A stretch of DNA of 59,113 bases. Source: a virus. Where the stretch lies: positions 1 to 59,113 of IMG/VR virus record IMGVR_UViG_3300031578_000036, one strand, 5' to 3'. The notes under the pieces were generated by a model. That model did not search any database, was not told where the DNA came from, and saw only the letters and a program-made list of their open reading frames with translations. Shown here piece by piece: positions 38,176 through 53,005 of this stretch. The stretch's first letter is position 1, and every line of letters starts with the position of its first letter. A program made the position numbers and the translations under genes.

Positions 38176-38508
38176 CTACCACCTCCCCATCCTGTAGTCG
38201 GTTTCGTCGTCCCACTCGATTGCCTTCGGCGGCCCTGCCACGTAGCCCACCTCGTCCAGGAATGCGTCCACCTCGGCCTCCAGGGCGGCGAGCCGTTGCG
38301 CTAGGCGCCACCCGAGCTCCCGTTCCTTCCGCCCGTTCGCCTCCAGCCACACCACGCACGCGCACAGGTTGTGGAGCGGCGAGATTGCGTCAGCGTCGGC
38401 TTCCGGCAGGCGGTCCACGGGATTCGTGGGGCTCGGCTCCAGGTCGCCGGTCAGGGCGATCCGGTTGCGCTCGGCGTTGAGCGACTCGGTCATGGAGCGG
38501 CCGTTCAT
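38176..38508 (-). CDS. Hypothetical 110-residue protein
   Basis: Starts MNGRSMTESLNAERNRI at 38508 (ATGA with the preceding stop; another start at 38493 is possible). Contains an acidic loop, a helix CVVWLEANGRKERELGWRLAQ and ends DETDYRMGRW. Function unknown. Confidence 0.65.
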   Translation of the reverse strand: MNGRSMTESLNAERNRIALTGDLEPSPTNPVDRLPEADADAISPLHNLCACVVWLEANGRKERELGWRLAQRLAALEAEVDAFLDEVGYVAGPPKAIEWDDETDYRMGRW

Positions 38509-38678
38509 TCGGCATCCCAATTCGTGTGCATCAACAGGGCCAAAAGGAACGACAAGCCCGTGAGCGCCAGTCCCACGGGCCACCATGGGCTGGTGTCATA
38601 CACGGTCAGGATCGCCGTTGCGACCGCAACCCCGAGCATGAGCGCGGAGCAGTAGATACCCCTTTCTCTTGTAGTCAT
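38505..38678 (-). CDS. Small two-helix membrane protein (57 residues)
   Basis: Two hydrophobic helices (LMLGVAVATAILTVY; PVGLALTGLSFLLALLM). Small inner-membrane protein in the early run, role unknown. Confidence 0.6.
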   Translation of the reverse strand: MTTRERGIYCSALMLGVAVATAILTVYDTSPWWPVGLALTGLSFLLALLMHTNWDAE

Positions 38679-38680
38679 GG

Positions 38681-38899
38681 TCAGAAGTCCAGTTCGGGTT
38701 GCGCGTCGGCGGGCAGCTTGTGGGTGCAGGGTTCGCAGTATTCCTGCCGCTCCCACTCCCACCCGTTGCGCTTCGTGCGGAGCCAGTAGGGGCGGGCCTC
38801 CGCCTCCGGGATCTCCTTGCCGCATCCCCAGCACGTCACGGTGTCCTCGAGCGTGACCACGGGGAACGGGCAGGGCCCGGGCAGGATCTTGATGTTCAT
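38681..38899 (-). CDS. Zinc-ribbon-like protein (72 residues)
   Basis: CWGCGKEIPEAE plus YCEPC form a four-Cys zinc site. ATG at 38899 has GGAG 5-8 bases upstream; another ATG at 38917 is possible. Function unknown. Confidence 0.65.
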   Translation of the reverse strand: MNIKILPGPCPFPVVTLEDTVTCWGCGKEIPEAEARPYWLRTKRNGWEWERQEYCEPCTHKLPADAQPELDF

Positions 38900-38942
38900 G
38901 GTGGCTCCGGTTGTCATGGTCGGGTTCCGGTTGCTTTCGTTG

Positions 38943-39140
38943 TCAGGCGGCGGGCCGGTGAATCGTCGCGTGGTTGTCGCGCCACACGATGATGTAGCCC
39001 TCGCGCTTCGCCTGGTCGGCGTAGGTGCGGGCGTTGATCTTGCACCGGGTGATTCCGTGCCCTGCCGTGACACGCTCCCCGGTCATGATGACGCCGATCT
39101 GCTCCCCCGGGCGGGTCGAAACACTCTTGCTCGTTTTCAT
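38943..39140 (-). CDS. Small hypothetical protein (65 residues)
   Basis: Basic with a central GITRCKINARTYADQAKREG and a C-terminal IIVWRDNHATIHRPAA. Perhaps nucleic-acid binding. A 15-base gap to the next gene upstream. Confidence 0.6.
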   Translation of the reverse strand: MKTSKSVSTRPGEQIGVIMTGERVTAGHGITRCKINARTYADQAKREGYIIVWRDNHATIHRPAA

Positions 39141-39155
39141 CGTCGTTCTCCGTTG

Positions 39156-39362
39156 TCAGGCGGCGGGCTTGGTGCCCGCCTCGATGTCGGCGTGCATCCG
39201 GTCGGCGGCGGCCTTACACATTCCCTCGGAGGTCGGCGCACCGGCCTCGTGGCGGATCCGATCAGCGTCCGTCAGCCAGTGGTGCGGCGTGCACCACACG
39301 CACCGCATGGCCAGCAGTTCACGGACGTTGCCGTTCAGGCCGACCCAGCGCACGGCAGTCAC
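39156..39362 (-). CDS. Small Cys/His protein (68 residues)
   Basis: GTG start at 39362 overlapping the stop of the repeat protein (GTGA). Contains CVWCTPHHWL, a possible zinc site, and a helical rest. Function unknown. Confidence 0.55.
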   Translation of the reverse strand: MTAVRWVGLNGNVRELLAMRCVWCTPHHWLTDADRIRHEAGAPTSEGMCKAAADRMHADIEAGTKPAA

Positions 39363-40039
39363 GGGGTGGCTCCGAGGGCGGCACGGAGTAGTGGCGCCAA
39401 CGCCGCAGCCGTGACGCGGTCGTACTCGGCCAACGCCGCAGCCGTGACGCGGTCGTACTCGGCCAACGCCGGAGCCCTGACGCGGTCGTACTCGGCCCAC
39501 GCCGCAGCCGTGACGCGGTCGTACTCGGCCAACGCCGCAGCCCTGACGCGGTCGTACTCGGCCCACGCCGCAGCCGTGACGCGGTCGTACTCGGCCAACG
39601 CCGCAGCCCTGACGCGGTCGTACTCGGCCAACGCCGGAGCCCTGACGCGGTCGTACTCGGCCAACGCCGGAGCCCTGACGCGGTCGTACTCGGCCAACGC
39701 CGCAGCCGTGACGCGGTCGTACTCGGCCGACGCCGCAGCCCTGACGCGGTCGTACTCGGCCAACGCCGCAGCCCTGACGCGGTCGTACTCGGCCCACGCC
39801 GCAGCCGTGACGCGGTCGTACTCGGCCAACGCCGCAGCCCTGACGCGGTCGTACTCGGCCAACGCCGGAGCCGTGAGTACCTTGTGCGCCAGCCACCCCA
39901 CGTCCAGGCCGAGCCGGTGGGCTTTACGGATCGTCGCAACCGTGATCGGGGCCCCATTGGGCCACTCGTGCTCCACGATGGCGACCTGTTCGGGGCATGC
40001 GCCTAGCGAACGCAGGTACTTAGCGGTGATGCGCTTCAT
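39359..40039 (-). CDS. Protein with 14 hendecad (11-residue) repeats
   Basis: A 226-residue protein. Residues 1-59 form a helix-rich head (RSLGACPEQVAIVEHEW, then TVATIRKAHRLGLDVGWLAHK). Residues 60-213 are 14 tandem 11-mers of the form A-[LWS]-AEYDRV-[RT]-A-[AP], a hendecad coiled-coil pattern (EYDRV core invariant). A short tail ends the protein. DNA repeats are 33 bases long and highly similar. Likely a rod-like structural or DNA-associated protein; function not known. ATGA start. Confidence 0.75.
   Translation of the reverse strand: MKRITAKYLRSLGACPEQVAIVEHEWPNGAPITVATIRKAHRLGLDVGWLAHKVLTAPALAEYDRVRAAALAEYDRVTAAAWAEYDRVRAAALAEYDRVRAAASAEYDRVTAAALAEYDRVRAPALAEYDRVRAPALAEYDRVRAAALAEYDRVTAAAWAEYDRVRAAALAEYDRVTAAAWAEYDRVRAPALAEYDRVTAAALAEYDRVTAAALAPLLRAALGATP
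39399..39860. repeat. 14 tandem copies of a 33-bp unit
   Basis: 462 bases, exactly 14 units of 33 bases, no spacers; unit core gccgtgacgcggtcgtactc. Variation falls in three places only (gcc/gga, gtg/ctg, acc/aac on plus). In frame with the repeat protein, so copy number may change without frameshift. Confidence 0.95.
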
Positions 40040-40431
40040 TTGTCGTCTCCGGTAAGGGCGGCACGGGCGATGACGTGGCACGCGGTTGAGCACCCCATCT
40101 CGTCGCAGTTGTGAACGTCGGGGTGGTCGTCAGCCAGGTCGCCGTTCGGTGAGCCATCCGTCAGGATCATCTCACCCTCGGCAGTGACCCACAGGGTTCC
40201 GCAGAACATCGTTCCAGGTGGCACGCGCTCCCGCTGGCGGCGCTCGTCCGACATCGGATATGCATGGACCCTGGCGAGGTGCAGGAAGCGTGTGGCGATG
40301 TCCTCGGGCTCCACGGGCAGGCTCGCAACCGCACGGCGCAGGCATTCGCAGGGGCCGTCGGTGTAGCCGTGCTCGTGGCAGTGGTAGTGCGCGCCGGTGA
40401 GCGTCCTGAAGCCTTCGTGCGTGATGCTCAT
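40036..40431 (-). CDS. Hypothetical 131-residue protein with Cys/His motifs
   Basis: ATG at 40431 follows AAGGGGG. Starts MSITHEGFRTLTGAHYHCHE; contains CHEHGYTDGPCECL and MGCSTACHV, several Cys/His that could bind metal. The middle half is a helical acidic region. No family recognised. Confidence 0.65.
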   Translation of the reverse strand: MSITHEGFRTLTGAHYHCHEHGYTDGPCECLRRAVASLPVEPEDIATRFLHLARVHAYPMSDERRQRERVPPGTMFCGTLWVTAEGEMILTDGSPNGDLADDHPDVHNCDEMGCSTACHVIARAALTGDDK

Positions 40432-40480
40432 GCGTCCCCCTTCAGCGCGTCCTTCGCGCGGTTGCTTGCGGTCCACCATG

Positions 40481-41221
40481 TCAGGCGGCGAGCGCATTGT
40501 GCTTCGCGTAGTGGGCAATCACTCGCCCGCACCAACCCTGGAGCAGCCGTACCGTGTGCAGATCCGCGTCCGTCATCCCGTCCACGTCGCCCTCGTCAGG
40601 CATGTCGATTGAGCGGATGAAGACGACCACCTTGCCCTCGGCGGGCTCGGTCTCGCCCTCCACCACCACGGGCTCGGCGTTCTCGACGGGTGTGGGCTCG
40701 CTGGCTTCGGCAAGGCGCCGCGCGGTGGCCTCTGCCACTTCCTCGGCCATCGTCTTCGGTTCGGCCTTCGGCTTGCGGGGCTTCGGAAGCATCCGGCGGT
40801 CCCGGGCTGTCCGAACGTGCTTCGCGGTCACGGGCTTGCCCTTGGCTTCGGCGTCGGCCCGTGCCTCCTCCAGCACTTCCGCCCGCTGGTCCACAGGAAC
40901 CGCGACCAGTTCGCGGGCCTGGCCCTCGTTGACCGGAACAGTTGTTCCACTTTCGAGCAGCCCGACCACGACCTCGTGGGCGTCGATCAACTGGCGGGCG
41001 CGGCGGTCGGTCCACCCGCAACGGGCCTGGCAGTACGCCTCGAAGGTGCCGAAGTCCTCCCTGTACAGCCGTTGGTCACGAATGATGGACAGTGCGCCCC
41101 CGACCTCCGCGAAGGTCTGGAGCCCCTTCTCCACGATCCCGTCCAAGTCGTTGAACTTCCGGCGCTCGACTACGGTGAGCGGCTCGGGCTTGGTGACGGT
41201 GGCCACGGCTTCGGTAGTCAT
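40481..41221 (-). CDS. ParB/KorB-like DNA-binding protein
   Basis: A 246-residue protein. Residues 20-110 match a family found in plasmids and phages: GLQTFAEVGGALSIIRDQRL, FGTFEAYCQARCGWTDRRAR, QLIDAHEVV and NEGQARELVAVP. It is a helix-turn-helix containing part of a ParB-type protein without the nuclease/CTPase domain. Acidic, disordered-looking middle, and a helical C-terminus. Immediately after the RHH gene (ATGA). Confidence 0.75.
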   Translation of the reverse strand: MTTEAVATVTKPEPLTVVERRKFNDLDGIVEKGLQTFAEVGGALSIIRDQRLYREDFGTFEAYCQARCGWTDRRARQLIDAHEVVVGLLESGTTVPVNEGQARELVAVPVDQRAEVLEEARADAEAKGKPVTAKHVRTARDRRMLPKPRKPKAEPKTMAEEVAEATARRLAEASEPTPVENAEPVVVEGETEPAEGKVVVFIRSIDMPDEGDVDGMTDADLHTVRLLQGWCGRVIAHYAKHNALAA

Positions 41222-41385
41222 GCGGCCCGCTTTGCGTCGTCAGCCACGGCGCGGGTAACGGCACGTTCCACGTACTCGGCGCGCGTCTGCCCTTCACGGG
41301 TGGCGATTGCCTCCACCAGCCGGATGATATCCGTCCGAAGTCTGAACGTCACGGGTTCCCTTGTCGGGGGCCTCTTGGTCGGCAC
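41218..41385 (-). CDS. Ribbon-helix-helix regulator (55 residues)
   Basis: Starts GTG at 41385 with AGAGGAGC 5 bases upstream. Contains TREPVTFRLRTDIIRLVEAI (beta strand then helix) and TRAEYVERAVTRAV (second helix): Arc/CopG/MetJ-type. First gene after a promoter with a palindrome (41422-41438), so it probably autoregulates the long early transcript. Confidence 0.8.
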   Translation of the reverse strand: MPTKRPPTREPVTFRLRTDIIRLVEAIATREGQTRAEYVERAVTRAVADDAKRAA

Positions 41386-41421
41386 GTTGCTCCTCTCTTT
41401 CCGGGTTGGATCCTTGGCGCG

Positions 41422-41438
41422 GTATACGATACGTGTAC
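41422..41438. promoter_or_regulatory. Palindromic operator candidate
   Basis: GTATACGATACGTGTAC is nearly a perfect palindrome (half sites GTATACG and CGTGTAC). It overlaps the -10 element of the early promoter, the right place for a repressor to block it. Binding by the RHH protein is inference. Confidence 0.6.
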
Positions 41439-41455
41439 GCCAGCCCGGATGTCAA
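41426..41455 (-). promoter_or_regulatory. Early promoter, TTGACA / 18-base spacer / TATCGT
   Basis: On the minus strand TTGACA (41455-41450, perfect consensus) and TATCGT (41431-41426) with 18 bases between. Read leftward it serves the RHH regulator and the early run. No other strong promoter is evident in the early block. Confidence 0.65.
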
Positions 41456-41562
41456 GGGTCTTGTTTCCGCACCCACCAATAAGCAGAGGCCGGAGCCCAT
41501 AGGACCCGGCCATTAAACGCCGTAGTTGTCAGCACGCGCCCTAACAGGTAGGGTAGCTGCCG

Positions 41563-42171
41563 CTAGCGCACCACGGCCTCAAGCGCACGAAGGATGGCGT
41601 AGTAGCCCAGCGCCTTCGGGATCTCATAGAGCGGGGCCCACCGGGGATAGCGCACCGTCGTGCGGTACGGCTCCTCGAGCCCGGCGGCGACCCCAAGTGG
41701 CAGGCGCACCCGGTAGTCCTCGGCCACCAAGTCGCCGTAGCCATTCATGCTCGTCACGAGCAGGGGGTTCCGCTGGAAGGGGAGCCAAGTCTGCCCAACC
41801 GTGAAGGAGCGGATCACGGAGGGGGACGGAAGCGCACGTTCTGTGCTATCCTGTCCTAGCTCAGTAGGACGTTCCGGGTCGGACTGCGCTATCAGGATAG
41901 GACGGCAGAACCGCTCCACGTCCTCCATGACGGCTCCCGGGGCGATGGCGCGCACGTCGGGTTGTAGATAGACGTACACGATCCTGTCGCGTATCCCCGG
42001 CGGGCCCGACGGCACCTCGCGCACGATGATGGCAACCCTCGTGGTCTCCACTTCCCGATATGGGAATACTCGTTCCCAACACGACAGGCAGGCCACCAGC
42101 GTCAGGGCAACGCCCACGAGCACCCACCCAATGCGGCCCATTACCCAGAAGCCAACCCTGGCGCCGTTCAT
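41563..42171 (-). CDS. Predicted lipoprotein/membrane protein (202 residues)
   Basis: ATGA start. N-terminal MGRIGWVLVGVALTLVACLS has a lipobox (LVAC). The body is a soluble domain of about 170 residues with no known family. The gene ends 177 bases before the early promoter region; this gap holds no evident terminator with a T-tract. Confidence 0.65.
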   Translation of the reverse strand: MNGARVGFWVMGRIGWVLVGVALTLVACLSCWERVFPYREVETTRVAIIVREVPSGPPGIRDRIVYVYLQPDVRAIAPGAVMEDVERFCRPILIAQSDPERPTELGQDSTERALPSPSVIRSFTVGQTWLPFQRNPLLVTSMNGYGDLVAEDYRVRLPLGVAAGLEEPYRTTVRYPRWAPLYEIPKALGYYAILRALEAVVR

Positions 42172-42377
42172 GGGATATCCAACAGGTCGCCCATCGCCTC
42201 GAACCACGCCTCGCGCACGGCCACCATGTCGTCCCGCTCGGCGGGCCCCAAATGCTTCACTTGGCCGCGCAAGTATTCACCGAACGCCTCGATGGCCGCG
42301 AATGCTTCACCGGCCCGGGATGCGCGCGTGAACTCGGCGCTGTCTTCCGGCAGGTTGAACGCGAGGATGCCTTTCAT
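42168..42377 (-). CDS. Hypothetical 69-residue protein
   Basis: Starts MKGILAFNLPEDSAEFTRAS and has an all-helical remainder (EAFAAIEAFGEYLRGQVKHL). Overlaps its neighbours by four bases. Resembles other small phage proteins with the NLPED-x-EF motif, of unknown function. Confidence 0.65.
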   Translation of the reverse strand: MKGILAFNLPEDSAEFTRASRAGEAFAAIEAFGEYLRGQVKHLGPAERDDMVAVREAWFEAMGDLLDIP

Positions 42378-42631
42378 GCTGCGCGCTCCACCACCCGGAA
42401 CACCGGGTACCGCTGAAGGTGGCCCACGCTCGTCTGCCTCCAGTCGCGGAACCCTTCCATCTTGCCCTCACGGCACAGCGCCCTCACCCGGTGCTGCACG
42501 GTGGTGAGGGGAAGGCCGGTTATGTCGCAAATCTCCGCAGACGTGAATGCGTTAGGCGCCGACGCCCCGGGCGTTGGCTGGGCCTCGAGCATGGCCTGGA
42601 TCAGTTCGGCCTCGGTCATGTCGCGGCTCAT
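42374..42631 (-). CDS. Winged-helix-type DNA-binding protein (85 residues)
   Basis: FTSAEICDITGLPLTTVQHR and VRALCREGKMEGFRDWRQTSVG look like a helix-turn-helix plus wing. A regulator candidate. Coupled with neighbours by ATGA. Confidence 0.65.
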   Translation of the reverse strand: MSRDMTEAELIQAMLEAQPTPGASAPNAFTSAEICDITGLPLTTVQHRVRALCREGKMEGFRDWRQTSVGHLQRYPVFRVVERAA

Positions 42632-43494
42632 GCGGCGCTCCGAATGATGGTGGGGCGCCGGGGCGCGGCGATGAACGGAATCACCTCGTCGCGCCCGTCA
42701 CGGATCATGCAGGCCGCGATCCCCACGTCAGCCAGCCGTTCGGCAGCGATCCGGTGGACGAACTCGGTGGCGAGCTGGAGGCAGGGCGTGGCTATCAGGC
42801 GGGTGACGCGCTTGTATGGCCGGCCGGAGTCGCCGTACAGGTGGGCGTGGGAGCGGATGGCAATGTCGGGTGGTCGTTCCTTGTCATCCCGCGCCTCGAA
42901 CTCGATGTCCTGGGCGTAGTACAGCAGGTACGGGTTGCGCGTGTGCGCACGCTGGCCCATGCGCCCGTGGTGGGCCTGGTCAATGAGAAGTCCACCGACT
43001 TCGTAGCGCCGCCGGTAGCTTGTGACTTGGCCGGTGTCGGGGTCCTCCACCAGCGGGAACCCCTTATCGCGCAACACCCTTGCCAGCCCTTCTTCCAATG
43101 AGCCGCCCTTGCCCACGTGCGCCCCGGTGCCCCGGGTCATGTGGATGGCCACGGGCCGGAGCTCGGTGAAGGCGTGGACCAGGACGCGGTTTGCCGTGCG
43201 GACATGGTGGCTGTCCATGGCCGAGGTATACTGCGCGTTCGTGTTGAGGTGGTGGAGCCCATCCGTCATGTCGCCATTGACGGCGAGCGTCACGTCGGCG
43301 CCCTCCTCCTTCGCTAGCGCAGCGACCTCACCGATGGCCTTGACGTAGTGGTTCCAGATCCAGCATTGGGCCTTGGATGGCTTGTACCACCCGCCGTCGT
43401 CCAGTTGGAACCCCTCAGGCTGGCAGATCGCGACCGTGGAGCCCCCGTGAACGTCGGCTACCATGACGATCAGGTGCTTGCGCTTCTTGCTCAC
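42628..43494 (-). CDS. Calcineurin-like metallophosphoesterase
   Basis: A 288-residue protein with VADVHGGS (D14, H16), VNGDMTDGL (73-74 GD), MTRGTGAH in place of GNHE, and RSHAHLYG as the GHxH-like motif. The metal ligands of the family are nearly all present, the central Asn being replaced. Substrate unknown; many phages carry such enzymes. GTG start overlaps the preceding stop. Confidence 0.82.
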   Translation of the reverse strand: MSKKRKHLIVMVADVHGGSTVAICQPEGFQLDDGGWYKPSKAQCWIWNHYVKAIGEVAALAKEEGADVTLAVNGDMTDGLHHLNTNAQYTSAMDSHHVRTANRVLVHAFTELRPVAIHMTRGTGAHVGKGGSLEEGLARVLRDKGFPLVEDPDTGQVTSYRRRYEVGGLLIDQAHHGRMGQRAHTRNPYLLYYAQDIEFEARDDKERPPDIAIRSHAHLYGDSGRPYKRVTRLIATPCLQLATEFVHRIAAERLADVGIAACMIRDGRDEVIPFIAAPRRPTIIRSAA

Positions 43495-43910
43495 TCGCCC
43501 TCCCTGTTGGGGTCGCCCCTGTGGGTGTGCCACGCCAACGCGGCGAAGTCGTTGACGTACCCTTCGGATGCGTCTGACCAGAGCCTTTCGGCTAGGGCCC
43601 TCTTGGGTTTCTGCGTGATGATCGTTTCTACGCATTGGTCCAGTGGAGCCATGAGCACGTGGCCGATCTCGTGAAGCATCGTCACCGCCCGCCCGCGCGC
43701 GTCCATGGACCAGAACATCGGATGGAATGCAATCTCGGCGGATCGCTGGTCCCACATGGCGGTAGCGGATGCGTAGCTGTTAGGGTCCTTGTCGTCATAG
43801 GAGATCACGAGCGTGTCCACCCAGCCGGGCAGGAACGGGCGCCACTCTGCTACCACCTTGCGGATCTCCGCGTCCAGCGCGTCGGGCAGTTCACGGTAGC
43901 GCACTCTCAT
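43491..43910 (-). CDS. HEIGH-type zinc metalloprotease-like protein
   Basis: A 139-residue protein. H80-E-I-G-H84 in AVTMLHEIGHVLMAP is a zincin signature, preceded by IAFHPMFWSMD. The GGAGG site lies before the ATG. Small intracellular zincins of this type occur in phages and ImmA/IrrE-like regulators; target unknown. Confidence 0.72.
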   Translation of the reverse strand: MRVRYRELPDALDAEIRKVVAEWRPFLPGWVDTLVISYDDKDPNSYASATAMWDQRSAEIAFHPMFWSMDARGRAVTMLHEIGHVLMAPLDQCVETIITQKPKRALAERLWSDASEGYVNDFAALAWHTHRGDPNREGE

Positions 43911-44152
43911 GTTTCACAGTCCTCCCGGAATCGGCCGCACACGGGACAGCGTGCCCAGCCTGGCAGCACGGGCTGATTGCACTCGCCGCACCGCCATGGG
44001 GACTGGTCCTCGTACCGCAGGGTGCGGAGCGGGTGGTCGTCCTGCTCCTGGAGAGCCTCGCCCGGGTCGATGCCGTCAGGGACAGCAAGCACACAATCCT
44101 CGTCGGCGTCTTCAGAGACGCGCACGACCCGGAGGTGCGGCTCGCGGTCCAT
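43907..44152 (-). CDS. Zinc-ribbon protein (81 residues)
   Basis: Acidic N-terminal half; CGECNQPVLPGWARCPVCG is a zinc ribbon near the C-terminus. Starts four bases after the stop of the next zinc-ribbon protein. Function unknown. Confidence 0.68.
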   Translation of the reverse strand: MDREPHLRVVRVSEDADEDCVLAVPDGIDPGEALQEQDDHPLRTLRYEDQSPWRCGECNQPVLPGWARCPVCGRFREDCET

Positions 44153-44155
44153 GGG

Positions 44156-44350
44156 CTACGTCTTCGGTGGGGGCTCAGGTGGCACGGTGCCCTTCTTCTG
44201 GCCGCACGCTCGGCACGCCTTGGATGTCTCGCATTGCTTGCGCCCGCACCACCGGCAGATCCAGGTGCCACGCATACGGCTGCAATGAACGCAATTCATC
44301 CAATCGCCACTGTTCTCCTGGTCGCAGACTTCACAGGTCCAGTGCTTCAT
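44156..44350 (-). CDS. Double zinc-ribbon protein (64 residues)
   Basis: Four CxxC pairs (CEVC, CVHC, CRWC, CRAC) in 60 residues: two zinc ribbons, the first similar to RanBP2-type. Short Pro tail. Possibly a host-modifying or nucleic acid-binding protein. ATGA start. Confidence 0.68.
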   Translation of the reverse strand: MKHWTCEVCDQENSGDWMNCVHCSRMRGTWICRWCGRKQCETSKACRACGQKKGTVPPEPPPKT

Positions 44351-44775
44351 CTATCTCCCCACAGTAGAGACTCACGGGGCATCCATGCGGGCGCAGGACC
44401 GGCCCAGAAGGCGACCTGAACCGCCGCTACGGGGATTATCCACCACATCAGCACCATGGGAGGCAACCACAGAGCCACACCCATGGCGTAGACCCACATC
44501 ACGTCGCCCACGTGGTCGAGCGCATCACCACGCCCCCGGCATAGGTCGGGCAGTTCGCGGAGCGAATAGAACGCGACAGCCAGGGGCCAGTACCAGGCGA
44601 GCGGGAGCCACAGCGGGCCGCCGATCAGCACCCACACCAGGAGCGCATTCAGGGCGTGCGCGGAATGGCCCGTGACGCGCGGCGAGGCGTAGGCCCACAC
44701 CCGGCGGAACCACTTGAGCCACCACGGATAGGACTCCACGGGCCAGTTGTCGGGATCGAAGCTGCCGGGGTTCAT
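44347..44775 (-). CDS. Membrane protein after endolysin (142 residues)
   Basis: Three or four hydrophobic helices (ALLVWVLIGGPLWLPLAW, VMWVYAMGVALWLPPMVLMW, IIPVAAVQVAFWAGPAP). Overlaps the endolysin stop by four bases. A role in lysis is possible but not shown. Confidence 0.65.
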   Translation of the reverse strand: MNPGSFDPDNWPVESYPWWLKWFRRVWAYASPRVTGHSAHALNALLVWVLIGGPLWLPLAWYWPLAVAFYSLRELPDLCRGRGDALDHVGDVMWVYAMGVALWLPPMVLMWWIIPVAAVQVAFWAGPAPAWMPRESLLWGDR

Positions 44776-45305
44776 GCGATCTCCGGCAGATCCACCCGGC
44801 AGCGGTCCCGTAGCGCGTTCACACGGGACACCCAGGCCAGGAGGAAGACACGGGACGCGGGGCGCCCCAGACAGATGCGCTCGTAATAGTCCAGGCGTTC
44901 CCACAACATCCGCCCTACTAAGGTGGGCAATGGCAGGGCAGCGACGGCGGCCAACGTCTGCGGCCCGACATTGCCGTCCGCAGGAACGCCCACGGCGCGC
45001 TGTAGGATCTTCGCTGCACCCGCGAGCCCGTGGTTCACGCTGGCGTCGAAGTGGCACAGACTGACGGGCCACGGCAGGGCCTCGCATTTGGCCGGGAGCC
45101 AATAATTGTGGTGGTAGATCAACTCCACCTCGGCGTCCGTGATGGTCCACACGTCGCGGGCGGGCTTCCCGTTGGCCCCGAGCCAGGCGTTGAACACGGC
45201 CTGGGTGATGCCCTTCATGGTGCGCCCGCCGGGATCGGCCGGGTTATCTGCGCCGCCGCCCTCGAATCTCAGGGTGACGGGCAATGCCTGATAGAAGCCG
45301 CTCAT
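44772..45305 (-). CDS. GH108 N-acetylmuramidase endolysin
   Basis: A 177-residue enzyme. RFEGGGADNPADPGGRTMKG (E15 catalytic) and GITQAVFNAW define glycoside hydrolase family 108; LCHFDASVNHG and LQRAVGVPADGNVGPQT match the C-terminal PG_binding_3 region. Cuts glycan strands at lysis. Placed after a holin-like gene. Confidence 0.9.
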   Translation of the reverse strand: MSGFYQALPVTLRFEGGGADNPADPGGRTMKGITQAVFNAWLGANGKPARDVWTITDAEVELIYHHNYWLPAKCEALPWPVSLCHFDASVNHGLAGAAKILQRAVGVPADGNVGPQTLAAVAALPLPTLVGRMLWERLDYYERICLGRPASRVFLLAWVSRVNALRDRCRVDLPEIA

Positions 45306-45634
45306 GGTTCCACCTGGGCAGAACCCATCGGAATCTCGGGATCGTCCACGGCGCGGGTGTTTATCATGCGATCCGCGAAGATCGTCCCCGCCTCGCCGGG
45401 CTTGCCGAACATCCCCGTGACGGCCCGGACCACCGCCTCGGCCGGGGCCTTGCTTAGCGCGCCGTCAATCGGGAGCGCGAACAGGACGCAGAAGACGATG
45501 AAGGCTTCGGCCCAATTCGCTGCACCTATGGGGGAGTGCGCGAGTCGCCACACCTCGGCGAGCGTGAACAGCGCCACGGTCCACCGCGTCGTGGACCACC
45601 ACGGCCAGCGCATCTTCTGGCGGCGCTCGGTCAT
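45302..45634 (-). CDS. Holin-like membrane protein (110 residues)
   Basis: Basic N-terminus, two hydrophobic segments (TVALFTLAEVWRL; WAEAFIVFCVLFALPIDGAL), soluble tail. Directly before the endolysin (ATGA). The topology fits holin class II or a GH108-associated 3TM-type protein. Confidence 0.68.
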   Translation of the reverse strand: MTERRQKMRWPWWSTTRWTVALFTLAEVWRLAHSPIGAANWAEAFIVFCVLFALPIDGALSKAPAEAVVRAVTGMFGKPGEAGTIFADRMINTRAVDDPEIPMGSAQVEP

Positions 45635-45681
45635 GGCCCGCGCCTGCCGTGTACTCGTGTGGTGCGCCGTTCTCTCTGCAT
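45631..45681 (-). CDS. Possible 16-residue leader peptide of lysis genes
   Basis: ATG at 45681 after CAACGGGGGGAC, reading MQRERRTTRVHGRRGP and stopping with TGA overlapping the holin ATG. May only serve translational coupling. A longer frame starting at 45744 lacks a ribosome site. Confidence 0.3.
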   Translation of the reverse strand: MQRERRTTRVHGRRGP

Positions 45682-45709
45682 GGCGTCCCCCCGTTGCCAG
45701 ATGGCTTCT

Positions 45710-45738
45710 ATTCTACGGGCGATTACCGATTCGGGCAA
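45710..45738 (-). promoter_or_regulatory. Putative promoter of the lysis genes
   Basis: On the minus strand TTGCCC (45738-45733), a 17-base spacer, TAGAAT (45715-45710). Directly upstream of the holin and endolysin genes and in one of the few non-coding gaps. Confidence 0.5.
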
Positions 45739-45771
45739 GTGCATCATGCAAGAAAACGCGCCCTCGGCTCA

Positions 45772-45861
45772 TCACAATCCCAGCACGAAGCGAACGATCT
45801 GCCGCAGTCCTTCGTCCGTCCGCCACAACTCCGTCAGCACCGCGAATAGCGCCGAGAACAT
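45772..45861 (-). CDS. Tiny protein (29 residues)
   Basis: Reads MFSALFAVLTELWRTDEGLR and a hydrophobic end (IVRFVLGL). It begins four bases after the stop of the Gly-rich membrane gene; the ribosome site is weak. Could be a holin-associated peptide. Low certainty. Confidence 0.35.
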   Translation of the reverse strand: MFSALFAVLTELWRTDEGLRQIVRFVLGL

Positions 45862-45864
45862 GTG

Positions 45865-46020
45865 TTAGTTGTCCCGGCTATCCGGCTCGTCGCCACCGCC
45901 ACCGCCACCGCCACCTGGATGGCTGGAGGTGAACGGCTTCCGCTGAAGTAACTTGACGATGACCGACCCAGCGATCACCAACGTGACCGCGGCGATCAGA
46001 ATCCCAATCCACTTGCTCAT
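45865..46020 (-). CDS. Small single-pass membrane protein with Gly-rich tail (51 residues)
   Basis: MSKWIGILIAAVTLVIAGSV is the membrane helix; KLLQRKPF follows, then eight Gly residues and an acidic end (DEPDSRDN). ATGA with the glycosyltransferase stop. Pinholin-like size, but function not known. Confidence 0.6.
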   Translation of the reverse strand: MSKWIGILIAAVTLVIAGSVIVKLLQRKPFTSSHPGGGGGGGGDEPDSRDN

Positions 46021-47006
46021 GATGCCTCCTGTGTGAGTGCGTGCAATTCTTCCCGCTGGCGGCACGGCACCGCTCCGCGGATCAGGACCGCGCCAGCCGC
46101 CTTGACCTCTTCCAGGTATCGGTGCGAGGCGTAGCGTGGGTTCACATGGTTCTCGATTGCGTAGGGTTCCTGGTGGATGTAGTCGCCCTTGTGAAACAGC
46201 CGTTCCCGGTCCCGGGCCGTGACCCCGGCGTTGTGGTAGATGGCGCGCTCGTCCCAACGTTCAGCCAGGTCGGTGGCCCAGGTGAACGCCAGCTCGGGAG
46301 CGATTGCCGTCTTGTGTCCCGCACGCCAGGCGCCCCAGAGCATGGCCCACATGTCGGCCGTGAAGACCTGAATCTCGTGATACTTCTCCGGCGTCGCAGG
46401 ATCGGCCTTGATCTCCCTCGTGCGGCGGCGGAGATAGGCGTACAGCGTCTCGCTGTCCTCGTACATGCGCCGCCACCAATCCGCATCAATACCCTTCATC
46501 ACGTATTGAGCGCCTCCGGCTCCGGCGTCATTGGCCTCCGGCACGCCCGGGTCGAGCCCCATCAGCTCGCACATCCCCTCGTACAGCCCATGACCCTTGC
46601 TCCGCAAGTAATCCACCCCGATATAGCTGCGGCAATCGCTGACGTGCCATGTTTTTCCCTCGGCCAGATGATCCCAGGCCGGAGGCCGCGTGAGCACAAT
46701 ATCGCAGTCATGATAGAACACAGTCGCCCCCTCCAGCTCCGGGAAGCCCTCCCAGTGCTGGGCCAGCACATAAGGCCGGATCGACAAGGCGTACACGGGA
46801 TTCGTCCGCCGGTCGTGGTAGAAGGCGAACCGCACGCCAGGGTAGGTGCGCAGCACGGCGCGCCACGAAGGGGGCACGCAGCGCGTCACCGCGCCCACCA
46901 CGTGGATCGACCCAGGCTCAACGCCATTGCGGAGGAAGCTCCGCAGCATGGTAGCCACCTGCCAAGCGTAATAGTTCGTGACAGGTTGGGCGCAGAGGTA
47001 GATCAT
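46017..47006 (-). CDS. Glycosyltransferase-like protein with DxD motif (329 residues)
   Basis: Resembles GT-A enzymes acting on surface structures: N-terminal MIYLCAQPVTNYYAWQV, VFYHDCDIVLTR (DCD, about residue 100, metal/nucleotide sugar site), DCRSYIGVDYLRSKG, AGGAQYVMKG, ADMWAMLWGAW and AFTWATDLAERWDERAIYHN. No membrane segment. Overlaps the GT2-like gene. Donor and acceptor unknown; may glycosylate virion protein or host polysaccharide. Confidence 0.78.
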   Translation of the reverse strand: MIYLCAQPVTNYYAWQVATMLRSFLRNGVEPGSIHVVGAVTRCVPPSWRAVLRTYPGVRFAFYHDRRTNPVYALSIRPYVLAQHWEGFPELEGATVFYHDCDIVLTRPPAWDHLAEGKTWHVSDCRSYIGVDYLRSKGHGLYEGMCELMGLDPGVPEANDAGAGGAQYVMKGIDADWWRRMYEDSETLYAYLRRRTREIKADPATPEKYHEIQVFTADMWAMLWGAWRAGHKTAIAPELAFTWATDLAERWDERAIYHNAGVTARDRERLFHKGDYIHQEPYAIENHVNPRYASHRYLEEVKAAGAVLIRGAVPCRQREELHALTQEAS

Positions 47007-47704
47007 CAGCCAGCTCCCCTAGCTAACGCCGCATCCCGGAGGGTGGGGAGGAAGCTCACGTCACCCGGCTCGATTGACGCTCCATTGCCCGTATCCTGGT
47101 GCGCCGCTTTCCATGCCGCGACCCGCTGCGAGAGAGACGCCTTGCCACCCAGTGACCCGGACGCATGGTGCATCCCGAATCCCCAAGTGTAGACATAGGA
47201 GAAGCGTTCAGGCCCCACATCCTCATCGACGATGCGGAGATTAGCCAGGAGGGGCCCGTGCTCGTCTCCCTGCCCAATCCGGTACCCTACACGACGCACA
47301 GCCGCTGTCCGGAAAAGGACGGAAGCCTCGAAGGCGTTTCCCGCTGCCTCTAGGTATCCCTTTCCGCCGTGCAAAAACCACGACCTTGACGGCTTCCATC
47401 CGTCCGCCTCACCAATTCGGGCCATCGCCTGGGAAAGATGCCAGGGGAACCAGAAGTCATCGTCGTCCCAGGTATGGACGAAATCACCGCGTGCCTCCTC
47501 CAAGACCCGAATCCGGCCCGCGCCGAGGTCGTCGTGCCACGGTTCGTTGAGGATCTTCACGCCCTGCATCGTCGTCCTGAGTGGTTCTGGGTGCGTGTTC
47601 AAAATCACCCACTCACGGTCAGCGTAATCCTGCCATGCCCAACAGGCAGCGGCCTGGCAGAGTTGCTTGTAGCGCCCGTGGGTGACGGTGAGGCAAGAGA
47701 TCAT
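47006..47704 (-). CDS. GT2-like glycosyltransferase (232 residues)
   Basis: Begins MISCLTVTHGRYKQLCQAAA, characteristic of GT-A/GT2 enzymes; FVHTWDDDDFWFPWHLSQAM contains the acidic nucleotide-sugar motif (about residues 76-80); SWFLHGGKGYLEAAGN and FEASVLFRTAAVRRVG follow. Small for GT2 and without membrane helices. ATGA overlap with the methyltransferase upstream. Confidence 0.8.
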   Translation of the reverse strand: MISCLTVTHGRYKQLCQAAACWAWQDYADREWVILNTHPEPLRTTMQGVKILNEPWHDDLGAGRIRVLEEARGDFVHTWDDDDFWFPWHLSQAMARIGEADGWKPSRSWFLHGGKGYLEAAGNAFEASVLFRTAAVRRVGYRIGQGDEHGPLLANLRIVDEDVGPERFSYVYTWGFGMHHASGSLGGKASLSQRVAAWKAAHQDTGNGASIEPGDVSFLPTLRDAALARGAG

Positions 47705-48288
47705 ATTACGGCCCTCCGTTGCAAAAGTACCTGGGCTTCGATGTGGTGAAGGGCCCTGAATCCACGGCCCAGCAGGAACGGGATCGTCCTCCTTCCCTTA
47801 CCGCTCCAGTCCCGATCGAACACGTCGTCGATCAGCACCAGCGCACCCGGGCTGAGCTTCGGGAGGGCGGCTTCGGCTTCGGCTAGGTTGTGGGCGTGAC
47901 ACCGGGCCACGTTATCAGGATCTCCGCAGTAGTCGTAGCTGTCGAGATAGAGCAAGTCGATCTGTCCACCGAAAGCCCGCAGGAAAGCCACACTGTCAGC
48001 CGTCACGAGATGGACCTGCAAGCCGGGATTGGGATAGTAGGTGGCCCGGAGCAGTTGGGCGCAGCGTGTGGCTGCGGGGTCCACATCCACCGAATAGAGG
48101 GTTGATCCGGTCTCTTGACAGAAGCCCAGCCAGTGATAGGTGGACCATCCGTCACCGAGGCGGGAGTCTCCCTCCAGACTCCGGACGGAACCCGTCTCCA
48201 CAATCGTCACCGCCCCCCCAGGGAATGTGCTCCGCAGGCTGTCCAACGTCGCCGCGAAAGACTTAGCCCTGCCGGTTTCGATCATCAT
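47701..48288 (-). CDS. SAM-dependent methyltransferase-like protein (195 residues)
   Basis: VTIVETGSVRSLEGDS (glycine-poor motif I variant), STLYSVDVDPAATRCAQLL (motif II), QVHLVTADSVAFLRAFGGQI, DLLYLDSYDYCGDP and LSPGALVLIDDVFDRDW fit the Methyltransf_24/cephalosporin-hydroxylase-like group. DSYD and IDDVF are acidic, so a metal-dependent reaction is possible. TGATG overlap with the poly-Thr protein gene. Confidence 0.8.
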   Translation of the reverse strand: MMIETGRAKSFAATLDSLRSTFPGGAVTIVETGSVRSLEGDSRLGDGWSTYHWLGFCQETGSTLYSVDVDPAATRCAQLLRATYYPNPGLQVHLVTADSVAFLRAFGGQIDLLYLDSYDYCGDPDNVARCHAHNLAEAEAALPKLSPGALVLIDDVFDRDWSGKGRRTIPFLLGRGFRALHHIEAQVLLQRRAVI

Positions 48289-49343
48289 CAGCACGCTCCC
48301 GTGTCAACGATCTGCCCGGCCGAAACCTGATACCAAGTTACCGCGTCAGAATAGAAGCCATTGTTGGCAGCCTGCGCGCAGATGGCGTTGAAGTACACCA
48401 GGCTCCCAATCCCCAGGATCGCGTCAGGGCTGTAGAGGTTCTGGCTGGGGACTTCCTCGCAAGCGATCACGGCGGATACCCCCTCGCTGAAGATTCCATG
48501 GTCATAGCAGGGTGCAGCCGTGGTGGTTGTCGTCGTAGTCGTTGTAGTCGGTGGTGCCGTCGTGGTCGTGGTTGTCGTGGTGGTAGTCGGCGGCGTGCAC
48601 GCTTCCGTCGCGACGATCTCGCCGCCGGAGACCTGGTACCAGTCCACGCCGTCAGAGTAGAAGCCATTGCCGGCGGCTTGCGCGCAGCCGGAGTCAAAGT
48701 ACACCAAGCTCCCGATGCCGAGTATGGCGTCCGGGCTATAGAGGTTCTGGCTGGGAATTTCCTCGCAGGCGATAGAGGCGGTGACGCCTTCGCTGAAGAC
48801 TCCGTGATCGTAGCAAGGCGCCGCAGTCGTTGTTGTGGTTGTTGTAGTCGTAGTCGTCGTCGGCGCAGCCGTTGTCGTCGTTGTCGTCGGCGCAGCCGTC
48901 GTCGTGGTGGTCGTCTCGCCCGCACACGTTCCGGTAGCGGCGATCTGCCCGGCTGAGACCTGGTACCAGTCCACGCCGTCAGAGTAGTAGCCGTTGCCCG
49001 CAGCCTGGGCGCAAGTGGAGTTGAAGTAGACCAGGCTGCCGATCCCGAGTATCGCATCCGGGCTGTACAAGTGCTGAGACGGGATCTCCTCGCAGGCGAT
49101 CAGGGCGGTCACGCCCTCGCTGAAGACGCCGTGGTCATAGCAGGGGGCCGCTGTCGTGGTGGTTGTAGTTGTAGTCGTTGTAGTTGTTGTGGTCGTGGTC
49201 GTCTTCTGGAAGATCAGCCGGTTTCCACCCGCGCTACCGGCCCACAACTCGGTCAACTCGACGTTGCCGCCTGCGGTCCCGACATGGATCTCCGTGAGCT
49301 GCTTGTTCCCGCCAGCCGTGCCGACGTGCGTCTCAATGGCCAT
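48288..49343 (-). CDS. Tail-region protein with three Cys modules and poly-Thr linkers
   Basis: A 351-residue protein. Residues 1-47 hold three copies of a short motif (VGTAGGNKQLTEI, VGTAGGNVELTEL, AGSAGGNRLIFQ) found at N-termini of phage tail-associated proteins. Then come three modules of about 70 residues (CYDHG, FSEGV, IACEE, SPDAILGIGSLVYF, CAQAA, YSD, WYQVS) separated by Thr tracts: 17 Thr first, then TTTTTTAAPTTTTTTAAP-type, then a Pro-Thr type. Synonymous codons ACG, ACC, ACA, ACT are mixed, so the tract is kept at protein level. Likely a host-contact adhesin; linkers are possible O-glycosylation targets. Confidence 0.78.
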   Translation of the reverse strand: MAIETHVGTAGGNKQLTEIHVGTAGGNVELTELWAGSAGGNRLIFQKTTTTTTTTTTTTTTTTTAAPCYDHGVFSEGVTALIACEEIPSQHLYSPDAILGIGSLVYFNSTCAQAAGNGYYSDGVDWYQVSAGQIAATGTCAGETTTTTTAAPTTTTTTAAPTTTTTTTTTTTTAAPCYDHGVFSEGVTASIACEEIPSQNLYSPDAILGIGSLVYFDSGCAQAAGNGFYSDGVDWYQVSGGEIVATEACTPPTTTTTTTTTTAPPTTTTTTTTTTAAPCYDHGIFSEGVSAVIACEEVPSQNLYSPDAILGIGSLVYFNAICAQAANNGFYSDAVTWYQVSAGQIVDTGAC

Positions 49344-52300
49344 CAACTATGCCGCCCGTAGAGGGCGCCCACGGCGAGCGCGCCAGGGGCGGCGGTGCTG
49401 AGTGTGAGGTTCAATTTCACGCGCGGTTGGTTGCCGGTAGATTTATCCCTGAGCAGGCCCGTGCCGATCACCAGTATCGTGCCGAGCATGCCGCCGCCCG
49501 TCGAGTCGGTACGAATCGGAACGAGCAGGTTGCCGCCCCAGCTCATCGGGGGGCCAGCATCTCCGGGGCCAACCGCGCCGCCGGTTGCGTTATACGGGGT
49601 GACTGTTGCGCCGGTGACCCCATAGGACAATGCGAAGAGGATGTTGCCCTCTGGGCTGGCGATGTTTGTGTTCCCGCTGCCGCTGCCCGTGGAACCATCC
49701 GTCCATGTGTAATGCAGGCTCTTTACGGCGCTACTCGCTGCCTGGTACTGGAGCCTGTTTGTCATCACGGCGGCCCCCAACACCCACTGCACCACGGGCT
49801 CGACCCAGATGCTCTTGAGCGTGTTCCGGCCTATACCCATCGTTAGCGCGTCGTAAAACGCCGTGCTGCTCTCCGTGCCGGTTCCGCCCGTGCTGCTGTA
49901 GCCCAGCAGCCCGATGTACCACATCTCCCCGTCGGTTGCGGTAGCCAGGCCCGTGCTCACCCCACCGCGCCCGTTTTTGGCTGCCGCTGCGCGGATCGTG
50001 GCAAGCGCCGGATTGCCTGCGGAGCTTACGGCGATCTTGGCGCTACGCGTATCCTTGTCGCCCTGCCAGGTGACGTTGAGCTTGCCGCCGGTGGAGAAGC
50101 TGCCCCACGCGGCCACGTCGGGGATCTTGCCCTTGTCGAAGCCGGGGCTCGACAGGTTGACGGGGAATCCGGTCGAGTCGTTCGTGTCGTAGAGCAATCG
50201 CCATTCGACGAAGCTCTGATGCTTCTCTATCAGCGTCACTTCTTGCGCGTAAGTGCTGTTGTTCGTCAACGTGCCCGCGGCGCGCGAGCCCTTTAGCGCC
50301 CACGCGCTCGGCGCCGCCGTCCCGCTCTTGTACCGAGCGTACAGCTTTTTGGCCTGCCAAGTGCTCGGGTCGATCACTTTGACGCCGTGTGTTGCCACCA
50401 CTAAGCCTTCCGAGCTGTTCGTCTCCAGGAGGCACGGCACGCGCTCGCCCCGCATGTCCGCGGCTAGGAGCATGGCGCCGTGATTCGTGTAGTCCGTGCT
50501 GGCACTAGGATAGGCGGCGGCGAGCAAGCGCATGACCTGGCCGACCTTCACCGTCCCCGCTGCCGTTGCCCAGGAGAGCGTGCTGGATCCGGCCAGCGCG
50601 CGTTTGCGACCGTTCGCCGTCGAGGCCGTGGCGAGCGCGATCTCTGCAGGCCAGAGCAGGCCAGCGGACGGCAGGCCCGATATCCACGCCACGCGCACGT
50701 GCGTCGCGTCCGCGTCCGCGCGCACGGCGATCTTGGCGGACCCGTCCACCTCATTGACCTTGAGGCCCACGGTGAGCATGTCGGTCAGCGGCGAGGCGTC
50801 CACGTAGGTCAGGAACCGATCACTGAGCGAGCCCCGGTTGTCCACGCTCCAAGCTTCCAGCGCACGCAGGCTCTTACCCGTGGGCCGGGGCACGATGACG
50901 TTGACGCTGTAGCCGCTTTCCTTCCAGCCGGTCAGGGGGTAGCGTGTGTTGCCCGTGGAGGCCAGCGTGCTCAGGTATTGCGTGCCGAACATGGTAACCA
51001 GCGCGCCGTCCGTGCGGGCCGTCATCTTGAATGTTACACCCGTGCTTGACGTGCTCGCCGCCGTGGATTTCGCGACCTCAATAGTAGGGCGCCGGAACTG
51101 GCTGCCCCAATTGCGCGTGCGCCGCCGGCCACGCCGACCCGGCACGCCCAGCCCGCTCAGGTCCTCGGGCCGGTTGGACAGCACCACGGAAGTCTCGCCC
51201 GGGTTGTCCAGGTTGCGCCGGATCTCCAGCACGCGGGTCTCGATGTCGAAGCCCATCTCGGGATCCGTCACCACGACCATGCCGCCGAGCTTCAACTGGT
51301 CCAGCGACAGTTCCGGGTGCATCCGCTCGAGGTCCGCCATACTGACTTCGAAGCTGACATACGGCCAGGAGTAGGTGACGAGGTAGTCGTTCGCCTCGCG
51401 CCATAGCAGGTTGCTCGCCCGCGAGTCATAGAACAACTCGGCGCCTGCGGCCGTCTGCGTGAGCTGGCCAGCGTCCAGGTACCATTCGGCGCCGCCCGTG
51501 CTGTAGGCCGTCACCCGGACCCGCACGCCCGTACTGGCCACCTGGAAGAAGTCCACCCCGGCAATCGCCAGGTTCTCCACCCACACGTCGCGCACGCTGG
51601 TGATCGCGGGCTCTGCGCCGTCTGGCGGATAGAGGCCGCCCTGCGTGCTGCTCACGTCCACCAGTTCCATCTTGACCGTGCCGCTCTTGACCAGCAGCGC
51701 GATCTGCCCGGTGAAATACGGGCCCTGGCTGGACGGCTCGATACCGACCACCGCGCTCTCCACGCCAAGCCCGGAGGTAAGCGCCGTCAGGTGTAGGCTC
51801 TGCGTACCGTAGCGCGTGTAGATGCTCGCCGTCTCGGCTGACGAGGCCGGGGCGCCCACGAGTGTCCAGCCTGCGGGCTCGCCGCCCGTGCTCAGCGCGC
51901 CGCCCAGGTACGGGTTGGTGAGCAGGTTGTCCACGGGCGGGATGTCCTCCCGGTCGTAGACCTGTACCACCATGCCGTAGGTTGCGACGTTGGCCGGATG
52001 CTGGAGGTAGACCAGATCCGCGCCGGCCGCGCTGCCCCGGAAATGGACACGCTCGCCGACCGTGATCCCGTGGGCCGCCGCGCTCAGGACCACCGTATAG
52101 CCTGTGCTGCTGTCCACGATGGGGGTGACGGTACCGCCCGGTTCCTCAAGCCACAGGCCGTTGAACTGGTCGGGGATGCGTACCGGCGGGCCGTCCACCG
52201 TGCTGATTGTGACCGTCTTGCTGCTCACGCCCGAGACCAGCCAGGAGGCGTCAGCGATGCTCATCCGGTCGCCCTGGTCGCCGCCCCCGCGCGGGTACAC

Positions 52301-53005
52301 GCGGGTGGCCATGTTCGTGCGCGCGTCCGAGTCGCGACCCAAGCCCAACATGTTGAAGCTGTACCGGATGTAGACGGGATCGAATGTGGAGCCGATGCGC
52401 GTGGACAGCGATACCGTATAAGTCGGTGCCGTGCTGTCGCGCTGCACGTCCAGTTCGAGGCCCGTCTGCGTGGCGATCTCGGACAGCGCGGAGAGTGGGT
52501 TGTCCCAATCGTACACGATGTCGAGCGGTTCCAGCGTCAGGCCGCCCGTGCTGCCCACGGTACCGAGCGTGAAGTGCGCCGGGGCCGCCGTCATGGCTAC
52601 AGCCGCGTGCGCCGCCGGGGCCAGGTTGTACAACTCGAAGTACGGATTGACGTCGCCGTTGGCTTCGGTGCGTGTCACCATGCCCTGGGAGAGATCGTAG
52701 CGGATGCCCTCGCACTCGACCGTGGCGCGCAGTCCGTCCGGGCCCCGGCTCTGCGTGGTGCGGACGATGCGCCATTCCTTCCAGGTGCCGTCCCTGAATA
52801 CGACGCGCAGCACGCGGCGCTCCAGGATGCTCGGCCACGACGCACCAAGCCGGTGCAGCTCGAAACGGGCGGTGTCCTTGCCGTCCAGCGTCACGTCGTC
52901 CGTCGCGCTCAGCCAATCATTGACGATGGCCATGCGTGAGGCGGCAGTAGATGACGCCTGGCAGTCCGTCCAGATTTCGATGTGCTCGATGACGCGGGCT
53001 GCCAC
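49343..53005 (-). CDS. Large tail hub/tip protein (1220 residues)
   Basis: Largest protein of the genome. Residues 1-330 have the beta-rich look of tail hub/central tip proteins (TARFELHRLG, LRVVFRDGTWKEWRIVRTT, FELYNLAPAAHAAVA, ATRVYPRGGGDQGDR). Residues 330-600 resemble jelly-roll carbohydrate-binding segments (YDREDIPPVDNLLTNPYLGG). The remaining half is a string of beta-domains; GRRGRRRTRNWGSQF near 640 is a basic linker. GTG start with GGGAGT upstream. Expected at the tail end, between Dit/adhesins and the poly-Thr protein. Confidence 0.8.
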   Translation of the reverse strand: MAARVIEHIEIWTDCQASSTAASRMAIVNDWLSATDDVTLDGKDTARFELHRLGASWPSILERRVLRVVFRDGTWKEWRIVRTTQSRGPDGLRATVECEGIRYDLSQGMVTRTEANGDVNPYFELYNLAPAAHAAVAMTAAPAHFTLGTVGSTGGLTLEPLDIVYDWDNPLSALSEIATQTGLELDVQRDSTAPTYTVSLSTRIGSTFDPVYIRYSFNMLGLGRDSDARTNMATRVYPRGGGDQGDRMSIADASWLVSGVSSKTVTISTVDGPPVRIPDQFNGLWLEEPGGTVTPIVDSSTGYTVVLSAAAHGITVGERVHFRGSAAGADLVYLQHPANVATYGMVVQVYDREDIPPVDNLLTNPYLGGALSTGGEPAGWTLVGAPASSAETASIYTRYGTQSLHLTALTSGLGVESAVVGIEPSSQGPYFTGQIALLVKSGTVKMELVDVSSTQGGLYPPDGAEPAITSVRDVWVENLAIAGVDFFQVASTGVRVRVTAYSTGGAEWYLDAGQLTQTAAGAELFYDSRASNLLWREANDYLVTYSWPYVSFEVSMADLERMHPELSLDQLKLGGMVVVTDPEMGFDIETRVLEIRRNLDNPGETSVVLSNRPEDLSGLGVPGRRGRRRTRNWGSQFRRPTIEVAKSTAASTSSTGVTFKMTARTDGALVTMFGTQYLSTLASTGNTRYPLTGWKESGYSVNVIVPRPTGKSLRALEAWSVDNRGSLSDRFLTYVDASPLTDMLTVGLKVNEVDGSAKIAVRADADATHVRVAWISGLPSAGLLWPAEIALATASTANGRKRALAGSSTLSWATAAGTVKVGQVMRLLAAAYPSASTDYTNHGAMLLAADMRGERVPCLLETNSSEGLVVATHGVKVIDPSTWQAKKLYARYKSGTAAPSAWALKGSRAAGTLTNNSTYAQEVTLIEKHQSFVEWRLLYDTNDSTGFPVNLSSPGFDKGKIPDVAAWGSFSTGGKLNVTWQGDKDTRSAKIAVSSAGNPALATIRAAAAKNGRGGVSTGLATATDGEMWYIGLLGYSSTGGTGTESSTAFYDALTMGIGRNTLKSIWVEPVVQWVLGAAVMTNRLQYQAASSAVKSLHYTWTDGSTGSGSGNTNIASPEGNILFALSYGVTGATVTPYNATGGAVGPGDAGPPMSWGGNLLVPIRTDSTGGGMLGTILVIGTGLLRDKSTGNQPRVKLNLTLSTAAPGALAVGALYGRHS

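Follow-up and report, generated by a model that had tools for sequence, protein, structure and literature searches.

Why would a phage encode a threonine-rich protein directly beside three putative modifying enzymes, in the middle of its late genes? The question is raised by the virus record IMGVR_UViG_3300031578_000036, of which the whole stretch of 59,113 bases was analysed (here called the window). Four minus-strand genes, P0001, P0002, P0003 and P0004, follow each other at 49343–46017 with consecutive stop/start overlaps. An initial annotation had proposed that the phage glycosylates its own poly-threonine (poly-Thr) tail adhesin, and this proposal is well supported by the linkage of threonine tracts to phrog_4417, the family of P0004, as well as by matched homologs, a sibling phage and a recurring gene set. 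Sequence comparison suggests that the four genes are likely a virion-glycosylation cassette at the tail tip, dedicated to the O-glycosylation of Thr tags on virion proteins.

The threonine-rich protein and its companion enzymes

P0001 (48288..49343, minus strand) is a predicted display protein and the likely glycan acceptor. It comprises an N-terminal triple repeat of the HVGTAGGN type, three Cys modules of 73 amino acids each with 81–86% mutual identity, and poly-Thr/AAP stalks. Of its 351 residues 75 are threonines, and 61 of these are found in six runs of 6–17 Thr, namely a run of 17 (49152..49202), two of 6 (48897..48914 and 48870..48887), one of 12 (48825..48860) and two of 10 (48558..48587 and 48519..48548), all on the minus strand. 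When all open reading frames (ORFs) of at least 50 amino acids in the 59 kb were scanned, runs of at least five Thr occurred in P0001 only. The codons within the runs are mixed (ACG 39%, ACA 25%, ACC 21%, ACT 15%) and identical neighbouring codons are not in excess (13 observed vs. 14.8 expected), which argues that the tract is kept as protein; an origin by codon or DNA slippage is, given the mixed codons, not supported. Both the module composition of P0001 and the selection of its tract at the protein level had already been proposed in the initial annotation and agree with these counts. The Pfam "Mucin" match of P0001 (1.1e-8) is compositional, its Cys module had no match in phage records, and structure prediction for the protein alone was uninformative with a predicted local distance difference test (pLDDT) value of 42.8.

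P0004 (46017..47006, minus strand) matches phrog_4417, a family without assigned function, over its full length (4.6e-56, residues 1–304), and matches none of the Pfam or NCBIfam models. In an alignment of 52 relatives, D100 and D102 of a DxD motif are invariant, and so are H258-N259-A260-G261; the conserved C-terminal H258 has a counterpart in GT8 enzymes. The AlphaFold2 model (pLDDT 92.4, predicted template modelling score 0.90) was searched against the PDB with Foldseek, which returned UGGT, Gat1, glycogenin and a GT8 protein (E from 3e-7, probability 1.00), and the annotated matches among predicted viral structures were mostly GT8 and other glycosyltransferases. A GT-A fold of the GT24/GT8 kind is thus confidently predicted, and on the basis of the DxD motif and this fold model P0004 is a predicted glycosyltransferase. 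It shares with glycogenin, Gat1 and UGGT the predicted GT-A fold and the DxD motif, but differs from them in that no sequence match was obtained in Pfam, NCBIfam or the PDB (where a profile search gave chance matches to geminin only) and in TM-scores of just about 0.4–0.5. Since its sequence matches no glycosyltransferase family, P0004 is best placed in a separate family with a GT-A fold.

The two remaining enzymes were assigned by family profiles. P0002 (47704..48288, minus strand) is a class I S-adenosylmethionine (SAM)-dependent methyltransferase (PF13578, Methyltransf_24; 1.3e-10, 42.5 bits vs. a curated cut-off of 26.3), as had been suggested earlier, and P0003 (47006..47704, minus strand) is a GT2 glycosyltransferase (PF00535; 4.5e-6, 27.1 bits vs. 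a cut-off of 23.3) with an invariant WDDDD motif. The earlier claim of two DxD-type glycosyltransferases is thus carried by the GT2 family in the case of P0003, whereas for P0004 the DxD motif was confirmed but sequence families alone were insufficient. The coupling of the four genes stands exactly as first described, with TGATG overlaps of 1 base at 49343, 48288 and 47006 and an ATGA overlap of 4 bases at 47704.

From these features we infer the chemistry, the priming enzyme, the order of steps, the target of methylation and the benefit of the system as follows. P0001 would be produced together with its modifying enzymes from the coupled genes and probably attaches to the tail tip via its N-terminal repeats, with poly-Thr/AAP stalks holding the Cys modules out from the virion. 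The first sugar is most likely transferred to Thr by P0004, in the infected cell and from a nucleotide sugar; P0003 probably extends the glycan, and P0002 probably methylates or caps it. A likely benefit could be a hydrated, protease-resistant or antibody-shielding coat, or an altered surface or binding of the adhesin. Methylation of the sugars, and varied host recognition or protease resistance as possible purposes, had also been put forward in the initial annotation.

Threonine tracts near phrog_4417 genes

Relatives of phrog_4417 are spread over 72 phage records, among them phages of Enterococcus, Lactobacillus, Staphylococcus and Lactococcus. Viral contigs contributed at least 335 stretches, of which 80 were kept, and bacterial genomes 34 loci, each from a Firmicute according to the record title. 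Carriers that can be cultured include Lactococcus phages 1706 and bIL285 and Lacticaseibacillus phage R3.3. In the viral contigs, alignment queries were needed, as single-sequence searches with P0004, P0003 or the Cys module found nothing. In most isolates inspected, the phrog_4417 gene adjoins the genes for the major capsid or major tail protein. Counted over distinct loci, a Thr tract is encoded on the same strand within 3 kb of the enzyme gene in 34/34 prophages, 9/10 isolates and 49/64 viral loci, and the one isolate failing this count, Planchet, has a related C-terminus (TTTDPVTTTSTT). Near the enzyme, 286 tracts lie on its own strand and 0 on the opposite one; in the prophages, tract density amounts to 0.426 per kb within 2.5 kb of the enzyme vs. 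0.003 per kb beyond 5 kb. A six-Thr DNA pattern was also mapped in the 20 whole genomes with complete match lists; of its 126 matches, 111 were located no more than 3 kb from a phrog_4417 gene.

Two controls served for comparison, namely an unselected scan for Thr tracts and the genes lying far from the enzyme at these loci. The unselected scan yielded 96 viral stretches with true long-Thr-tract ORFs, 13 of which include phrog_4417 in the short stretch available, mostly within about 1.5 kb. Beside Thr-tract genes lacking phrog_4417, glycosyltransferases were weakly enriched, with 6 matches among 148 neighbours; for 148 distant genes, 25 families were covered and included no such match.

In prophages, the genes close to phrog_4417 carry a short tag at the C-terminus of the encoded protein, e.g., TTTTTTTTSA, TTTTTTTTGGA or TTTTTSSTTTTTTSA. 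The tagged proteins are mutually unrelated and include major head proteins (phrog_10, phrog_840), phrog_749, major tail proteins (phrog_88, phrog_238, phrog_117) and connector proteins. Tagged C-termini were found for 65 of 299 genes within 3.5 kb of the enzyme vs. 1 of 332 at larger distances (odds ratio 92; Fisher p 5e-22, a value that overstates the case because related loci are not independent), and other residues tested gave no such enrichment at C-termini near the enzyme. Matched homologs follow the same pattern. Twenty-four capsid homologs of Lacticaseibacillus phage R3.3 with an adjacent enzyme gene, several of them nearly identical, are tagged (e.g., ...FTAGTSATTTTSTVKPTTTTTTSHA), whereas the capsid homologs of the Coetzeevirus phages Sabazios, ATCC8014, phiJL-1 and phiLpTT2 (66–73% identical) stop at the start of the tag with ...NKKAIFTASPKA or a close variant, and no phrog_4417 was found in the complete genomes of these four phages. 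Likewise, in comparison with SA2 and TPWB06, the major tail homologs of LP-101, EFap02 and phiST9-C have no tag and these phages no phrog_4417; L143, where the region is disrupted, is an exception among the matched homologs.

It is reasonably probable, if less so than the glycosylation cassette itself, that phrog_4417 represents a widespread class of phage poly-Thr O-glycosyltransferases, which read a portable Thr tag and densely coat virions with sugar, tag and enzyme being gained, lost and exchanged together. With the same reasonable probability, the tag would usually be C-terminal on capsid or tail proteins, as opposed to the tail-tip location in the window phage, and this class would extend over phages of Firmicutes and many uncultured phages, including contigs of 217–373 kb. 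Contigs of that size, i.e., jumbo phages, were seen to carry phrog_4417 in L077, L078 and L086–L089, most of them with Thr-tract genes nearby.

The same observations bear on the idea that the transferases instead modify the host surface (O-antigen, teichoic acid or capsule) against superinfection, with the Thr tracts as unmodified flexible spacers. Seroconverting glycosyltransferases of phages are well known and Thr-tract proteins often occur without phrog_4417 in the stretch stored. However, the genes lie in a late structural block adjoining capsid and tail genes, tag and enzyme co-vary in matched homologs, unrelated virion proteins share the common tag only near the enzyme, and family profile searches of the cassette found neither a membrane-anchored glycosyltransferase nor a flippase. 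We therefore regard a target on the host surface as improbable and virion glycosylation as the likely function.

In unrelated phages (L011 and L055), the complete set is seen again, with a Thr-tract protein, a phrog_4417 member, a methyltransferase and a GT2 enzyme. In the viral locus L011, a Thr-tract protein, phrog_4417, a Methyltransf_24 protein, a GT32-type enzyme and a P0003-like GT2 are encoded in a row, and L055 features a Thr-tract protein and phrog_4417 along with two more genes, a methyltransferase and a pair of GT2 enzymes. A third locus, L035, encodes a Thr-tract protein with Cys modules related to those of P0001, followed by phrog_4417 and GT2. Altogether, P0003 relatives adjoin phrog_4417 in six viral loci, and 103 genes that lie downstream of phrog_4417 at viral loci include 15 GT2, 5 GT32-type enzymes, at least 4 methyltransferases, 2 GT29 and 1 member of a mannosyltransferase family. 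GT29, matched twice among these downstream genes, is a sialyltransferase family. At L019:10909–12926, radical SAM/SPASM and Mannosyl_trans3 proteins are encoded directly after phrog_4417, perhaps for another modification of the same tract protein.

Which of the enzymes acts first on the tract is a separate issue. The virion could be glycosylated with P0003 or a host enzyme as the primer, or phrog_4417 could use another site while the tag serves separately, e.g., in docking. Consistent with this, L172 carries eleven Thr tracts and a P0003-like GT2 and has no phrog_4417 in 20 kb, which might represent a variant with another first enzyme, and groups of phrog_4417 without Thr tracts exist. In Firmicute prophages and isolates, however, the association is with phrog_4417 itself and was visible without a second glycosyltransferase; in these simpler systems of Firmicute phages, the enzyme appears to work with no evident phage-encoded partner beside it. 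An arrangement in which P0004 does not act on the tracts consequently appears rather unlikely, and P0004 is the preferred candidate for the priming step.

Several findings weigh against the proposed glycosylation of the virion. The support for it is comparative, and the TM-scores of P0004 to known glycosyltransferases are low, as stated above. Thr tracts are missing near phrog_4417 in L012, L015, L017, L020, L021 and L043 as well as in L026 and L031, and in L105 the capsid homolog is untagged, the tract being found on another gene adjoining the enzyme. The initial annotation had named homologous phages with the poly-Thr protein but never the transferases as evidence against its proposal. In viruses at large, Thr-tract proteins without phrog_4417 in the stretch available are common (83 of 96), whereas the closest homologous phage lacks both the tract and the transferases. 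Repeats of the TSTYTSTYTSTY type were observed in L031, and acceptor sequences may thus vary.

Replacement of the tail-tip block in a sibling phage

The closest homologous phage, IMGVR_UViG_3300031673_000164, was the only match when viral contigs were searched with the endolysin. It is identical to the window over positions 8685–34775 (100%) and nearly so over 34775–45738 (99.96%), and all four mismatches fall at 45711–45722. The junction lies at 45711..45738, with identity below and an exchanged block above. Within this block, the C-terminal part of the tail-tip protein has diverged (57% identity over 530 amino acids), P0001 is replaced by a fibronectin type III protein of 728 amino acids, and the small membrane-like protein at the same place differs from that of the window. 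Methyltransferase, GT2, phrog_4417 and Thr tract are all absent from the sibling region, and no phrog_4417 was found in its 41-kb record. The joint absence of the tracts and all three enzymes implies that the display protein is swapped together with its enzymes, as one block. What the fibronectin type III protein and P0001 have in common is the N-terminal triple repeat (49% over 45 amino acids), which to judge from this similarity is likely the attachment part.

In principle the sibling contig could be an assembly chimera, which would count against this evidence; yet the mismatches are concentrated close to the junction, the adjacent tail protein is homologous but diverged, and the genes stand in the same order. 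The replacement resembles exchanged tail-tip adhesin modules, where near-identical phages have swapped the tail-tip protein's C-terminal portion en bloc with the following gene, but differs in that the block here also carries or lacks modifying enzymes. When window positions 45711–50907 are set beside L181:1–3989, near-identical phages (37 kb) are seen to have different tail-tip ends, a sharp allele replacement that likely marks a host-range locus.

The sibling is also informative on whether the four genes could modify phage DNA or represent unrelated metabolic cargo that came to lie in the tail region by chance. Phages do carry DNA glucosyltransferases, and the window encodes further sugar genes, i.e., NeuB (23046–24095; PF03102, 3.6e-52), a CMP-sugar-type cytidylyltransferase (14681–15382; PF02348) and a polysaccharide pyruvyl transferase (24524–25663; PF04230). 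The linkage statistics nevertheless exclude coincidence, and the cassette-free sibling retains these other sugar genes with 100% identity; a role in DNA modification or as chance cargo is accordingly highly improbable. For the same reason, the assignment of the three genes to the glycosylation cassette is unsupported. Taken by themselves, they could form a nonulosonic acid pathway in the phage, and relatives of NeuB were found in just 2 of 50,697 phage records.

Known glycosylation systems and genomic surroundings

Virion glycosylation as such is known. According to the account in PMC12363180 (citing Freeman et al., 2023), the mycobacteriophages Che8, Corndog and Myrna modify capsid and tail proteins with their own glycosyltransferases, and the same account reports that mycobacteriophage virion glycans shield from antibodies; in Corndog, gp35–gp38 comprise an O-methyltransferase together with three transferases (PMC4351075). 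These systems are alike in that phage glycosyltransferases, in Corndog with an O-methyltransferase, target, or have been suggested to target, virion proteins of the phage itself, and linkage of glycosyltransferase-type genes to virion genes is also what was found for phrog_4417. The likely acceptor differs: here it would be a tract of poly-Thr or a Thr tag at the C-terminus, and in the window phage it is part of a tail-tip display protein. No mycobacteriophage was among the tblastn phage matches of P0004 or P0003, with remote homology beyond the reach of that search. Mucin-type O-glycosylation by eukaryotic GALNT enzymes (GT27) offers a further parallel, as Thr/Pro/Ala-rich tracts are possible multi-site O-glycan acceptors; however, no GT27/GALNT homology was found, P0003 matching GT2 only and P0004 nothing in Pfam, and the Mucin match of P0001 does not reach beyond composition. 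A description of the Thr tag or of a phrog_4417 function was not found in the open literature, subscription papers and preprints being outside this search, and both the enzyme family and the tag appear undescribed.

A function is thereby proposed for an unannotated phage family that spans the phage records, viral contigs and Firmicute loci counted above. Along with it comes a simple sequence rule, by which a Thr tag next to phrog_4417 would mark a virion protein as modified; the rule could reveal which other phages are coated and is open to direct testing in culturable dairy phages. Moreover, a portable tag and a small, apparently soluble transferase could serve glycoprotein production in bacteria.

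The surroundings of the cassette fit its assignment to the tail tip. Upstream lies the gene of a tail-tip protein (49343..53005, minus strand; Prophage_tail, PF06605, 1.8e-17), and P0004 is followed by a small predicted membrane protein of 51 amino acids (45865..46020, minus strand), a small protein without family match that may be a holin (45302–45634) and a GH108 endolysin (44772–45305). In siphophages, genes for tail-tip adhesins usually occupy such a position. Elsewhere in the window, a 33-bp unit repeated in tandem 14.6 times with 94% matches was observed at 39396–39876.

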